From: Candidatus Alcyoniella australis
GTDB lineage: Bacteria > Lernaellota > Lernaellaia > JAVCCG01 > Alcyoniellaceae
NCBI GenBank assembly: GCA_030765605.1
Contig: JAVCCG010000029.1
Location: 1 to 24,529, forward strand
Reading direction: 5' to 3'
Length of the DNA stretch: 24,529 nucleotides
In this document: in pieces, positions 10,354 through 21,486 of the stretch
Position numbering within the stretch: the stretch's first letter is position 1
How the letters are laid out: each line of letters starts with the position of its first letter
Made by a program: the position numbers and the translations under genes
Notes under the pieces: model-generated
The model's database searches: none
Seen by the model: only the letters and a program-made list of their open reading frames with translations
Told to the model about the DNA's origin: nothing

Positions 10354-11321
10354 GCGTCGACAATCTGCCGATGGCCATCAAGCCGGAAAGTAAGTTGCTG
10401 CTGGCGTGCACCAACGAAATCGAGACGATCCTGATCAGCGTTGCGCTGAGTCAATGCCTTGAGACGCCGCTGGTTCGGCTGTTCATGTCGCACTTGGGCC
10501 TGGGCCGGCTAAGCAATGTTCCGGTATTCCGTCAAGGGAAGACACCGACCGTGCTGATCGGCTTTCCCACACCGCGACTGGCGCAGGACGAGGAGGCGGC
10601 GCGCAAGGTGCTGAAGCTGGGCTTGGACCTGACCTGGATCAGCGAGCATCCGCTGGATGCCGATGAGATCGCCGCTGCACCGCGACTCCGGTTGGAGCCG
10701 GTTGACCAAGGATTATGGCAAACCGTTTGCCGCGTACTGGGATGCCCGCGTTCGGCCATCGAGCCATTTGCCGGAATCGCAGCCGAGCTTGGCGAGCCGC
10801 TGGTCGATCCCCAGGTAGCGGACCACGACACGGCCTGGCGCTATTGCCTGGAAGCAGCCTGCCAGGAGCCGCAATACCTCGGACCGAGCTCGGCAGGTCT
10901 GATCAGCGGCCTCCAACCCGATCCGATCCTGGTGCTGGCCGGTCACCAGCTGATCGTGCAGCGTTCCCAACTCGCTGCCGACAGCAGCTTTCACACCTTC
11001 GACACGCCCAACGGCCGTGCGGTATTGGTGTTGGCGCCGCGTAGGGCGCTGGGCTTCTACTACGGCCTGGCGCATGAGGTGAGACGGCGTAGGTCGTGCG
11101 TGCTGAGCGTGCTGGCGTTCGATACGGGCGAGCCGCTGATCGTCGAGTACGAACAGCGGCCCAGCGATTTTAAGCTGCGCATGGAGATGATCGGCTCGCG
11201 GTTCCCCGAGCACGTGGTCAGGCCCTACGGACCAAGCGGAATCGCGATCAAGGGCTCAAAGGCGGGGTCGCTGGACGTACTCGATCCGCTGATCGAGCTG
11301 CTTTCGAGCGAGATCAACTAG
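10350..11321 (+). CDS. hypothetical protein translationally coupled to mpl
   Basis: I do not recognise this 323-residue protein. It has no signal peptide or transmembrane helix and looks like a globular cytosolic protein with alternating strands and helices. The segment LDLTWISEHPLDADE (about 92-106) and the C-terminal EHVVRPYGPSGIAIKG faintly recall the architecture of DHH/DHHA1 phosphoesterases. The metal-binding Asp-His-His residues are not intact, so this is speculation. The start ATGA overlaps the mpl stop by 4 nt, with GGAG 5 nt upstream, so it is almost certainly translated with Mpl. A role in muropeptide recycling or control of Mpl is suggested by position only. Codon use looks like its neighbours. 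Confidence 0.75.
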   Translation: MSVDNLPMAIKPESKLLLACTNEIETILISVALSQCLETPLVRLFMSHLGLGRLSNVPVFRQGKTPTVLIGFPTPRLAQDEEAARKVLKLGLDLTWISEHPLDADEIAAAPRLRLEPVDQGLWQTVCRVLGCPRSAIEPFAGIAAELGEPLVDPQVADHDTAWRYCLEAACQEPQYLGPSSAGLISGLQPDPILVLAGHQLIVQRSQLAADSSFHTFDTPNGRAVLVLAPRRALGFYYGLAHEVRRRRSCVLSVLAFDTGEPLIVEYEQRPSDFKLRMEMIGSRFPEHVVRPYGPSGIAIKGSKAGSLDVLDPLIELLSSEIN

Positions 11322-11997: not shown

Positions 11998-12849
11998 TTA
12001 TCGATTGTTGGCCATGCTTTCCATCAACAGGCTGTAGAATTTCTTGGTCAGCGCTCCGGGCCTTCCCTTGCCGATCTTTCGATCGTCGATGCCCACCACC
12101 GGCATTACCTCGGTTGTGGTGCCGCTGAGGAACACCTCGTCGGCCGCGTAGAACTGATCGAGGCTCGTTGCCCGTTCCACGACCTTGATTCCGGATTTGC
12201 GTCCGAGTTTGATCAGATGGTCGCAGGTTACTCCACCGAGTATACAGTGGCTGGAAGGATGGGTGAAGGCCGTATCGTCCTTGACCATGAACGCGTTGGC
12301 CGCGGTGGCCTCGTGTAGGATTCCGTCGTGTCCGATCATCAACGCATCGAACGCCCCGGCGTCGAGGGCCGCCTGTTTGGCGCGAACGTTGCCCAGCAGG
12401 TTGACGGTCTTAATGTCGCAACGGGACCAGCGCTCGTCCGCTACGCTGATTACCGACACTCCCTTGCGAAACAGCGCCGCACTGTAGCGCTTAAGCGGAC
12501 TGACCGTAATCAGCAGATTGGGTTGCGGATGCTTGGGGTAGGGATGTGCGCGCGGCGCAGTGCCGCGGCTGATCTGCAGGTAGATCTTGGCCTGGTCGAT
12601 CTTTGAGAGCTTGAGCAGCTTCCTGATCTGAGCTCTTATCAGACGGATATCGACCGCTTCGAGCATCTGCATCTCGCCCAGGGAGCGCTTGAGTCGGCGC
12701 ATGTGAGCGTCGAACAGGAACAGCTTGCCATGGTAGACGGCCACGACCTCGTACACCGCGTCGCCGAACAGCAGACCGCGATCGTTGACTGAAATCGTCG
12801 CACTATCAAGCGACGAGACAACACCGTTAACCATTGCCAGATCTGACAT
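11998..12849 (-). CDS. dat: D-amino-acid aminotransferase (D-alanine aminotransferase type)
   Basis: A 283-residue fold-type IV PLP enzyme that interconverts D-alanine and 2-oxoglutarate with pyruvate and D-glutamate, supplying D-amino acids for the cell wall. The PLP lysine is probably Lys147 in RCDIKTVNLLGN. Its neighbourhood, and SRGTAPRAHPYP with Arg100-x-His102, match the D-specific branch rather than branched-chain aminotransferases or aminodeoxychorismate lyase. RGLLFGDAVYEVV (about 24-36) and the C-terminal LSGTTTEVMPV (about 241-251) are also typical. The start at 12849 was chosen because GGGGAG lies 7 nt upstream; a TTG at 12864 would overlap that site. First gene of a two-gene unit with the cyclophilin. 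It reads away from the DnaA-box-rich gap. Confidence 0.88.
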   Translation of the reverse strand: MSDLAMVNGVVSSLDSATISVNDRGLLFGDAVYEVVAVYHGKLFLFDAHMRRLKRSLGEMQMLEAVDIRLIRAQIRKLLKLSKIDQAKIYLQISRGTAPRAHPYPKHPQPNLLITVSPLKRYSAALFRKGVSVISVADERWSRCDIKTVNLLGNVRAKQAALDAGAFDALMIGHDGILHEATAANAFMVKDDTAFTHPSSHCILGGVTCDHLIKLGRKSGIKVVERATSLDQFYAADEVFLSGTTTEVMPVVGIDDRKIGKGRPGALTKKFYSLLMESMANNR

Positions 12850-12918
12850 CTGAACACTCCCCAAGGTGATCCTGCCCCAACGTTGTGCAATTCAATCGGA
12901 GGGGGCTATTTTTGAGGG

Positions 12919-12947
12919 ATTTTATGTTGTGTACACAACCTTGTCCA
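12919..12947 (-). promoter_or_regulatory. dat promoter with a 14-bp palindrome in its spacer
   Basis: On the minus strand, -35 TGGACA (12947-12942) and -10 TAAAAT (12924-12919), each 5 of 6 to consensus, are separated by exactly 17 nt. The spacer contains the perfect palindrome GTTGTGTACACAAC (12926-12939), a likely operator. The -35 overlaps a DnaA-box-like TTGTCCACA (12941-12949, plus strand). The predicted start near 12912 leaves a leader of about 62 nt that ends in the strong dat Shine-Dalgarno. Confidence 0.55.
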
Positions 12948-13139
12948 CAGGTTTTTCCCCATCTAATGTGAATAACCCGTGATTGCTCGCAGATATTGCA
13001 AAGACCATCGTAAATTGGGTTATCAACATGAAATAGTATGGAATATGGGTCTTGGAAGCATTGCTTAGGGTTAATTCAATCCGGACACGGGTCGCGGGAA
13101 AGCCGAATACTAAACTTATACAAGGACGAGTTATACACA
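12926..13139. other. DnaA-box cluster in AT-rich intergenic DNA (candidate origin or DnaA-controlled region)
   Basis: The 391-bp gap 12850-13240 is the only gene-free stretch over 300 bp. It holds two exact matches to the DnaA box TTATNCACA: TTATTCACA on the minus strand (12967-12975) and TTATACACA on the plus strand (13131-13139). Two single-mismatch boxes are TTGTCCACA (12941-12949) and TTATCAACA (13020-13028). ATAACCC (12972-12978) and GGGTTAT (13018-13024) form an inverted repeat around AT-rich DNA. The surroundings are clearly richer in A+T than the flanking genes. Apart from promoters and the palindrome at 12926-12939, I see no RNA gene or credible ORF here. Whether it is oriC cannot be told from this window; dnaA, dnaN and gyrB are not adjacent. 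Confidence 0.45.
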
Positions 13140-13199
13140 ACTACCTTTAAAATTGGGCCGAATCACGGAACTCGGGACTTTTATGCCGCCCAAAGTGTG

Positions 13200-13229
13200 T
13201 TGACAACTGCAAGCGGCAGCGGCTACCTT
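13200..13229 (+). promoter_or_regulatory. putative promoter of the small membrane protein gene
   Basis: A perfect -35 TTGACA (13200-13205) is followed after 18 nt by TACCTT (13224-13229), which matches only 3 of 6. The predicted start would be only a few bases before the ATG at 13241, and no Shine-Dalgarno is present, so the leader would be very short. Confidence 0.35.
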
Positions 13230-13240
13230 CCATAAACATT

Positions 13241-13582
13241 ATGGCAAAGTACAGCAAGAAAAAGATCAAGCTTAAAAGCGTCCGGCCTCCTGCCGACTTC
13301 AAGACGATCATCGTGCTGTTGGCCAGCGGATCAGCCGTGCTGGTGGCGACGTTATTGGTCTACTTCCTGGGCACGCCGGTGATCAACCAGCACTATGGAC
13401 CGGACAACACGCTGATCGATGTCCTGCAATTCCTGATCGCGTTTTTCTCGGTTGCCGCGTTCTTCGGAGTCGGTGCATTAGTTCTGGGGCTGATCAAATT
13501 GTTCAACCGTCTGCGCCACATGGTTACAAATCGGAACGAGCCCAGCAGAACTTCACGACCCAGGAAAAAGTCAAAACGCTGA
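13241..13582 (+). CDS. small two-helix membrane protein, function unknown
   Basis: A 113-residue protein with a very basic N-terminus (MAKYSKKKIKLKS), two hydrophobic segments (about 22-44 and 62-88) and a basic, Ser/Arg/Lys-rich C-terminus ending in RPRKKSKR. The positive charge at both ends and the even number of helices predict both termini in the cytoplasm, with a short periplasmic loop around NQHYGPDN. No family is recognised. The start ATG has no Shine-Dalgarno; a TTGACA -35 lies upstream. It is convergent with the OsmC-family gene, 7 nt apart. The clear membrane topology makes a real gene likely. Confidence 0.7.
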   Translation: MAKYSKKKIKLKSVRPPADFKTIIVLLASGSAVLVATLLVYFLGTPVINQHYGPDNTLIDVLQFLIAFFSVAAFFGVGALVLGLIKLFNRLRHMVTNRNEPSRTSRPRKKSKR

Positions 13583-17121: not shown

Positions 17122-17403
17122 ATGAATAAATCGGACTTGGTAGAGGTACTTGCCAAACGAACGGGAATTACTTTGAAAAAGGCCCAAGAGGTCGTGGATA
17201 AGGTCTTCGAGGCGATGACCGACACACTCGAACAGGGAGAAAGGATCGAAATCCGTGGTTTCGGTTCGTTCTCGGTCAAAGAGTACAAGCCGTATACCGG
17301 ACGCAATCCCAAGACCAAAGAATCGATCCACGTACCGCCCAAGCGCCTGCCTTACTTCAAAGTAGGCAAAGAGCTGAAAAAGAGGGTCGACCTCCACGGC
17401 TGA
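17122..17403 (+). CDS. HU/IHF-family nucleoid DNA-binding protein
   Basis: A 93-residue homologue of HU/IHF, the small dimeric proteins that bend DNA and organise the nucleoid. The N-terminal helices read NKSDLVEVLAKRTGITLKKA. The core GERIEIRGFGSFSVKEY is at about 41-57. The DNA-intercalating arm carries the conserved Arg-Asn-Pro (GRNPKTKESI, about 61-70). The C-terminal PKRLPYFKVGKELKKRV is typical. Some features, such as the PPKRLPYFK ending, look closer to IHF-like subunits, so the exact subtype is left open. GGGG about 9 nt before the ATG is a usable Shine-Dalgarno. It has its own promoter and is followed by a 107-nt gap before sucC, so probably monocistronic. Confidence 0.95.
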   Translation: MNKSDLVEVLAKRTGITLKKAQEVVDKVFEAMTDTLEQGERIEIRGFGSFSVKEYKPYTGRNPKTKESIHVPPKRLPYFKVGKELKKRVDLHG

Positions 17404-19552: not shown

Positions 19553-21486
19553 TGAAGCGCGTTGCAATTTTTATCGCACTGCTGGCGCTGCTGTGCGCCG
19601 CCTCACCGGCAATGGCCATGGACGAACAGGCGAGCCGGCGGATTATCGTGCGCGCCATCGAGCTCTCCCCGGTCCAAATCCAACGGCTGTTCCAGGGACG
19701 CGAGCAGCTGATCCCCCAGGCGATACAACAGTCGACTGCGATTGCCGTTGATGCGCAATTCGATCCCAACGACCTGTTCGACATGGCGACGATCCACGCC
19801 GACCTGTCCGACGATGCGAGCATCGAGGCCACCCTGCGCGAGCTGATCGAACTCACCGGCATGTTGTACGCAACGGTGAATCATCAGCACAACGAGCGCT
19901 ACGACAGCCTGTTCGCTCAGGCGGCCCCGACATATCCGATCCGTTTCGACGGCTACCATACTTTCAACGACTACACGCTGATTATCGAAAAGACCGAGTC
20001 CTTTCTGCGCGTGCACGACAGCGCGGTTCAGGCCTACCTGGAGTCGCCCGAGCGCGGCGGCGGCGAGCAGGCCGCGCAATCGGCGTGCGTGATCCAAAAC
20101 GCCCTTGCCAACATCACCGCCGATCTGTGGGTCACCGTGCTGCTGCCGCTGATCGACCAGCTTGACGCGCCGCTTCAGACCGGAACGATCGTCAAGGGCA
20201 GGCGGCCGCCCGTGCAAATACCCGACGTGGAACTTTACCTGCCCAAGGGTATTGATCCGTCCGTCGCGACCGCCCCTAACCGCGACCTGCCGATCTACCT
20301 CGAAGTCACGAACTACGGCACGTCCGTGGCAGCCGATTACAGCGGTCCCACAATTACCATTGACGAAGAGGGGCTGGTGATCACGGTCGAGCGCTTAGCC
20401 CCTGAACAGGCTCTACAGCAGGCGGCACAGGCACGCCGCGAGGCCGCCCTGGGTCTGGGGCAATCGACGTCAGCGGCCAATGCCACTGGCGTGCAGGTCG
20501 AACAGCGCATTGAGCAGCAACGCGCCCTGGATCAGGCGGCACAGGCACGCCGCGAGGCTGCGATCAGTGTTGGAAAAAGCCCCGCTCCCACAGCGGGGCT
20601 GATCGGCACTCGGATCTCCCGCGAGCTAGAAAACCGAAGCGCGTTAATGCGAGCCCAGCGGATCAGAACCGCGGCCGCCTTGGCGCTTGACCGCGGCAAG
20701 GGCAGCGCTGTTCAAGCGCTGGCCGCCGCTGTCCTGGTTCGCCGCAATACGCAGATCGAAGCCGGGCGCGAGCTGAGGCTGCAAAGCATCGCCTTGCACA
20801 AGGGCGAGATCAGCGGCGTAAGCTCGACGATCGAGGGCATCTCCAACAGCATGACCTTGGAGGTCAGGATCAGCGGCAGCGAGGTGCAGTCGGTACAGAT
20901 CGATGAATCCAAGCTGGCCCACGTGCGCGGCGTGCAACCCGACGTTGACGCCGGGAACAACGATCTGTTCAGCGTGCTCGAGTCAATGGACATCGGCACC
21001 TTGGTCAACGCAGACAATCAGCGCCAGCTTAAGCAGGGTGAAAACGGCGACGCCGAAGCCGAGCAATCAGATATCGACCCAGGACTGCGATTGGACGCCG
21101 ATGCGCCGAACATCGGCGAAGAGAAATCGATGCTCACCGTGTCCAGCGGCTCGCTCAGCGTCGATCGCGGGGCGCAGCAGGGCACGTTCGACGCCCAGGC
21201 CGTTTCACAGATCTTGGCCGATAATCACCGCGGATTCAGCTATTGCTACGAGACGCAGCTCAAGCACTCTCCCAATCTATCGGGGAAAATAGCAGTGGAA
21301 TTCACCATCGGCCTTGACGGTCGCGTGGACCGCGCCGTTGTGCTCGACGATGAGAGCGACCTCAAGGACAGCGCTGTGCAGAATTGCATCCTCGAGCGCT
21401 TCAAACGACTGAAATTCCCCCCGCCGGTAGGCGGCGAGGTTACGGTCAAGTACCCGCTGATCTTTGCGCCGTCTTTTTCATTTTAG
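19552..21486 (+). CDS. exported protein with AgmX/PglI-type C-terminal domain and internal repeats
   Basis: A 644-residue protein with a signal peptide ([20 protein letters not shown], cleavage near 22-23). The N-terminal region (about 25-260) is not recognised. Residues about 287-400 hold three units of about 38 residues: [17 protein letters not shown] (287), [17 protein letters not shown] (325) and a degenerate one at about 363. They are helical and Ala/Arg/Gln-rich. The last 100 residues (about 544-644) match the TonB-like AgmX/PglI C-terminal domain of Myxococcota and relatives: [24 protein letters not shown] and the paired cysteines Cys565 and Cys612, then [11 protein letters not shown]. 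Such tails occur on envelope and gliding-related proteins; the function here is unknown. It overlaps sucD by one base, and GGAGG is 13 nt upstream. Convergent with the zinc-ribbon gene. Confidence 0.8.
20419..20558 (+). repeat. 26-bp direct repeat inside the AgmX-tail gene
   Basis: Bases 20419-20444 and 20533-20558 are identical over 26 bp and 114 bp apart (38 codons, in frame). Both encode QAAQARREA. The identity includes third-codon positions, while the rest of the two 38-codon units has diverged. That suggests either a recent duplication or gene conversion of the repeat core. Confidence 0.85.
20574..20600 (-). terminator. intrinsic terminator-like hairpin, antisense inside a coding region
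   Basis: AGCCCCGCT (20578-20586) and AGCGGGGCT (20592-20600) form a perfect 9-bp GC-rich stem with a 5-nt loop. On the plus strand it is preceded by AAAAA (20574-20578), so read on the minus strand it is a hairpin followed by TTTTT, the form of a rho-independent terminator. It lies within codons about 342-350 of the plus-strand gene. No convincing terminator was seen nearer to the convergent gene at 21571. Confidence 0.6.

Follow-up and report, generated by a model that had tools for sequence, protein, structure and literature searches.

The DnaA-box clusters (DBCs) of Bacillus subtilis and Streptomyces coelicolor occupy non-coding DNA at a distance from where replication starts, and a role in preventing premature initiation is proposed for them (PMC4585315, citing Okumura 2012 and Smulczyk-Krawczyszyn 2006). 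The same source describes datA, DARS1 and DARS2 of E. coli as short non-coding clusters of three to six DnaA boxes, and the E. coli dnaA and mioC promoters as DnaA-repressed with boxes within or near the promoter (PMC4585315). At origins with the DnaA-trio unwinding system, a box is followed by a short spacer and a repeated trinucleotide (PMC8287927). The locus of Candidatus Alcyoniella australis analyzed here resembles each of these in part. Like the DBCs it has several predicted boxes in non-coding DNA that is probably outside oriC; like datA, DARS1 and DARS2 it is short and non-coding, with no sequence homology claimed; as at the dnaA and mioC promoters, boxes are found in or close to what may be a promoter, although the gene is a different one (dat); and with a trio-type oriC, i.e. 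the basal unwinding system, it shares clustered boxes in AT-rich DNA. By its apparent anatomy the cluster thus fits the known kind of extra-origin DnaA-box cluster. We know of no recurrence beside dat for the Bacillus or Streptomyces DBCs, and a non-exhaustive literature search found no report of DnaA control of a D-amino-acid transaminase.

The window, meaning the whole stretch of 24,529 bp that was analyzed, is an entire contig (C29) of an assembly of 4.29 Mb in 157 contigs. Genome-wide box statistics were derived from pattern searches of this assembly, and the comparison set comprised 59 further genomes, six of them (G001 to G006) in the window's class and none in its genus or family. The boxes are located in a divergent intergenic gap (Table 1) that contains an AT-rich stretch of 28% GC. 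The top NCBIfam matches of dat are D-amino-acid transaminases, scoring under the curated cut-offs, and its likely start codon, picked by inspection, is the ATG at 12849-12847, five codons inside the listed TTG and preceded by a GGGGAGTG stretch. For the membrane protein on the other side of the gap no homologue was found in the 60 genomes searched, and no Pfam or NCBIfam match. Elsewhere in the window there is an HU/IHF-family gene at 17122-17403 (best NCBIfam match IHF beta, 111.3 vs. a cut-off of 115 bits), and ARAGORN called a minus-strand tRNA-Ala (cgc) at 19774-19853, inside the first part of a long ORF on the plus strand; this call is without Rfam support and probably spurious.

Table 1. 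Features of the dat region (window coordinates).
Feature	Position	Strand	Basis or remark
dat, D-amino-acid transaminase-like gene (class IV aminotransferase)	11998-12849	-	ORF; Pfam Aminotran_4, 1.1e-48
Divergent intergenic gap with DnaA-box cluster	12850-13240		391 bp, 45% GC
Sigma-70-like promoter for dat (putative): TGGACA, 17 nt, TAAAAT	12919-12947	-	consensus match only (10 of 12)
Perfect 14-bp palindrome GTTGTGTACACAAC	12926-12939		inspection; missed in the original prediction
DnaA box TTGTCCACA, 1 mismatch	12941-12949	+	overlaps -35-like hexamer
DnaA box TTATTCACA, exact	12967-12975	-	pattern match
DnaA box TTATCAACA, 1 mismatch	13020-13028	+	pattern match
DnaA box TTATACACA, exact	13131-13139	+	pattern match
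Weaker DnaA-like box TTGTCAACA, 2 mismatches to TTATNCACA	13198-13206	-	missed in the original prediction
Divergent gene, 113-aa membrane protein	13241-13582	+	ORF

The original prediction had reported four boxes in this gap, two exact ones on opposite strands and two with one mismatch, and all four are present where it placed them. With the weaker box added, the gap holds five boxes of the pattern TTRTNMACA within 266 bp, two of which are exact TTATNCACA.

Boxes were also found upstream of dat in two of the six class relatives, G002 and G006, which together with the window makes three of seven genomes, from two families. The dat orthologues of these two relatives show 47-50% protein identity. 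In G006 the upstream boxes are CTATCCACA at +28 on the minus strand, TTGTTCACA at +183 and TTATCCACA at +194, and apart from this tandem pair no two TTRTNMACA sites of one strand lie within 30 bp of each other in that 4.7-Mb genome; in G002 they are CTATCCACA at +27 on the minus strand, TTTTCCACA at +185 and TTATCCACA at +197. The nearest box in both lies 27-36 bp ahead of the dat start codon, and AAACTATCCACA ahead of the start is common to the two. What recurs across genomes is the box pattern and not alignable sequence, and the box positions in the window are unlike those of G002 and G006. Upstream of dat in G001, G003, G004 and G005, the stretch examined contains no box of one mismatch or fewer (the G003 contig stops 290 bp upstream, and the broken G005 match was joined from two pieces), and control of dat would therefore not be universal in the class; G004 even shares its family with G002 and G006, yet has no dat-upstream box. 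In a contig search with a dat alignment, G006 was the only member of the window's class among the best 80 matches. As a control, an exact box was located upstream of one of 79 dat homologues (other phyla, at least 300 bp upstream), and that one was G006 itself. Since the gene divergent from dat differs between genomes and dat is constant, dat is the more likely target.

The reading we favor, with a probability of about one half, is that the gap carries a DnaA-binding regulatory cluster outside oriC which controls dat and also titrates DnaA. It draws on the boxes themselves, on how rare they are, on a location away from the probable origin and on the boxes found ahead of dat in two relatives, and it predicts binding of DnaA, a promoter and a direction of regulation. 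Both exact boxes would be DnaA-binding sites, with cooperative binding extending to the weaker ones. The box at 12941 overlaps a promoter-like site facing dat, and the palindrome is located in the spacer of the same site; DnaA bound there may block or tune dat transcription, and the supply of D-amino acids for peptidoglycan would then follow the level or nucleotide state of DnaA. Promoter-like sites are equally frequent in shuffled versions of the gap (one found vs. 1.1 expected, no better than chance). DnaA at the box nearest to dat in G002 and G006 could likewise hinder transcription. The same binding would necessarily take some DnaA from the pool, giving a titration effect alongside. Of the three roles offered in the original prediction, that of an origin is not supported, as set out below, and those of titrating DnaA or letting DnaA control dat remain and are favored, boxes being present upstream of dat in the two relatives.

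A tentative alternative, which we hold to be somewhat unlikely, is that the cluster serves chiefly as a sink for DnaA, or as a site of its inactivation, and restrains initiation, like E. coli datA and the Bacillus and Streptomyces clusters, with dat as an incidental neighbour. It is the densest box cluster in the genome, its five boxes equal the number described for datA (PMC4585315), and a single Bac_DnaA-domain protein was found in the genome with no Hda-like partner seen. Clusters located elsewhere in the relatives also speak for a sink, as a site-level role such as titration fits them no less than gene control does. In G004, a gap with a PAP2 phosphatase gene on one side and a membrane-protein gene on the other (C85:36346-36623; L074:6346-6623) has a minus-strand TTATCCACA followed, after ~250 bp, by TTGTCCACA and TTATCCACA, a layout similar to that of the dat-side clusters. 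The PAP2 gap of G002 (C27, about 170.0-170.3 kb; L202) has a minus-strand TTATCCACA, with TCATCCACA plus CTGTCCACA at the opposite end, and G002 thus carries both kinds of cluster. The lack of dat-side boxes in G004 together with a cluster elsewhere is also what would be expected of a DnaA sink whose place matters less. Against a sink, the boxes recur beside dat and not at neutral sites of one constant type. Furthermore, datA needs an IHF site, whereas the E. coli IHF consensus WATCAANNNNTTR has no match in the window gap.

In the PAP2-gap and dat-side clusters of the relatives, and in the regions upstream of dnaN, the outermost boxes face outward, in opposite directions. This orientation was noticed post hoc and the window cluster does not cleanly fit it, and we regard it as a lead only. 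Outward boxes, TTATTCACA on the minus and TTGTCCACA on the plus strand, also occur in the window's own genome between mazG and a DUF5683 gene (G000:C95:5594-5783; L223:1395-1584). Other groups of boxes were observed in G002, with three DnaA-like boxes upstream of a subtilase-family gene (C39, about 31.0-31.4 kb; L227:1038-1441), and in G005, with three exact TTATNCACA within 242 bp upstream of a putative DUF1611-like or similar reading frame (C24:119179-119420; L107) and a further box cluster at C8:113879/114094. That the clusters represent a mobile repeat was rejected, as blastn showed little common sequence beyond the boxes.

It is improbable that the boxes are sites of another regulator, e.g. 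one recognising the palindrome GTTGTGTACACAAC, and merely resemble DnaA boxes. The box sequences do vary, and a perfect 14-bp palindrome in a promoter-like spacer is what such a regulator might use. Either strand of the palindrome reads as a two-mismatch DnaA box. Against such a regulator, the palindrome is absent upstream of dat in G002 and G006, whereas TTATCCACA is present there. In addition, the palindromes that resemble it, GTTGTATACAAC in G006 (L109, ~10453-10470) and ATTGTATACAAC in G004 (L041, ~2550-2560), are both located in DNA upstream of dnaN, i.e. in origin DNA.

A functionless chance cluster in AT-rich intergenic DNA is highly improbable. The chance of about 1 in 80 for an exact box in a region of this size, as first estimated, is of the right order. 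When the gap itself was shuffled, which controls for its AT content, two exact boxes appeared in 0.015% of 20,000 dinucleotide shuffles; a set of 6,000 shuffles gave four boxes of one mismatch or fewer in 0.1% of cases, and TTRTNMACA never occurred four or five times. As TTRTNMACA was drawn up once the boxes were known, the pattern is partly fitted post hoc, and the exact boxes give the cleaner estimate. Genome-wide there are 169 TTRTNMACA sites in 4.29 Mb, five of them in the window gap and no more than two in any other 300 bp, and the expected number of clusters like that of the window is 0.001 even at a tenfold local box rate. The boxes are hardly commoner in this genome than the reversed control pattern (32 vs. 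23 for exact TTATNCACA, 169 vs. 138 for TTRTNMACA), and therefore single boxes mean little and it is the cluster that counts. That boxes precede dat in two other genera as well also argues against chance. In four relatives exact TTATNCACA is rarer than its reversed pattern (G001 16/42, G002 28/70, G003 14/28, G004 22/54), and in G005 (33/23), as in the window's genome, it is not. G001-G004 may be avoiding DnaA boxes at stray positions, the counts being uncorrected for composition.

The original prediction had put forward the gap as a candidate replication origin, a proposal that the dnaA region of the same genome argues against. The dnaA gene is located on contig C36 with dnaN after it, and the gap between them contains TTGTCCACA and TTGTTCACA and, farther along, CCACAAATTCACAGGCG followed by ATAATACTAATACTA, a DnaA-trio-like layout; two additional boxes were found upstream of dnaA. 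One trio run of at least four is present in the dnaA-dnaN gap and none in the window gap. The strict trio pattern is absent from the dnaN-upstream DNA of G004 and G006, and therefore the trio evidence is partial and specific to this genome. The dnaA-dnaN order, with boxes, is the same in G002 and G004, and G006 has two exact boxes immediately upstream of dnaN with dnaA located elsewhere. In G002 the cumulative GC skew, computed over 220 kb, has its minimum at contig position 420,626, which is 0.6-0.8 kb past the dnaA-dnaN gap (roughly 419.8-420.05 kb), and no origin-type skew switch or minimum was observed at the dat locus. In G005 the skew near dnaA is noisy, and a sign change near dat has the direction of a terminus, with no minimum there. 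In the window the skew has the same sign on either side of the gap (+0.016 and +0.013), and on C36 it is likewise slightly positive on both sides with no clear switch; these signals are too weak and the contigs too short, and the skew argument therefore rests on G002. Unlike a trio-type oriC, the window gap thus has neither a trio run nor a skew switch, features that were both found at dnaA-dnaN, the former in this genome and the latter in a relative, and from these two sources we infer that the origin is probably at dnaA-dnaN. Of the two observations that had been named as speaking against the original prediction, a skew minimum elsewhere was found (in a relative), while the boxes, which were to lack conservation, recur upstream of dat in two relatives. 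Although one and the same pattern finds more boxes in the window gap than between dnaA and dnaN, although the window gap includes the 28% GC stretch, and although the dnaA-dnaN skew evidence comes from a relative, the skew, the trio search and the comparison of dnaN-upstream DNA, together with the mostly plus-strand genes to either side of the gap, make oriC or a second origin here very improbable. Box count alone would mislocate the origin, as the densest cluster of this genome is not in the dnaA-dnaN gap.

Returning to DnaA control of dat, a wider version would be a class-wide DnaA link between replication initiation and cell-wall D-amino acids, through a dat cluster in several genera and with a second recurrent cluster beside PAP2 and membrane-protein genes. 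We consider this rather unlikely. If the cluster beside dat is real, it would be a candidate DnaA control site in a class for which almost no literature was found, and it would be a specific case in which to test whether DnaA couples replication to the supply of peptidoglycan precursors.
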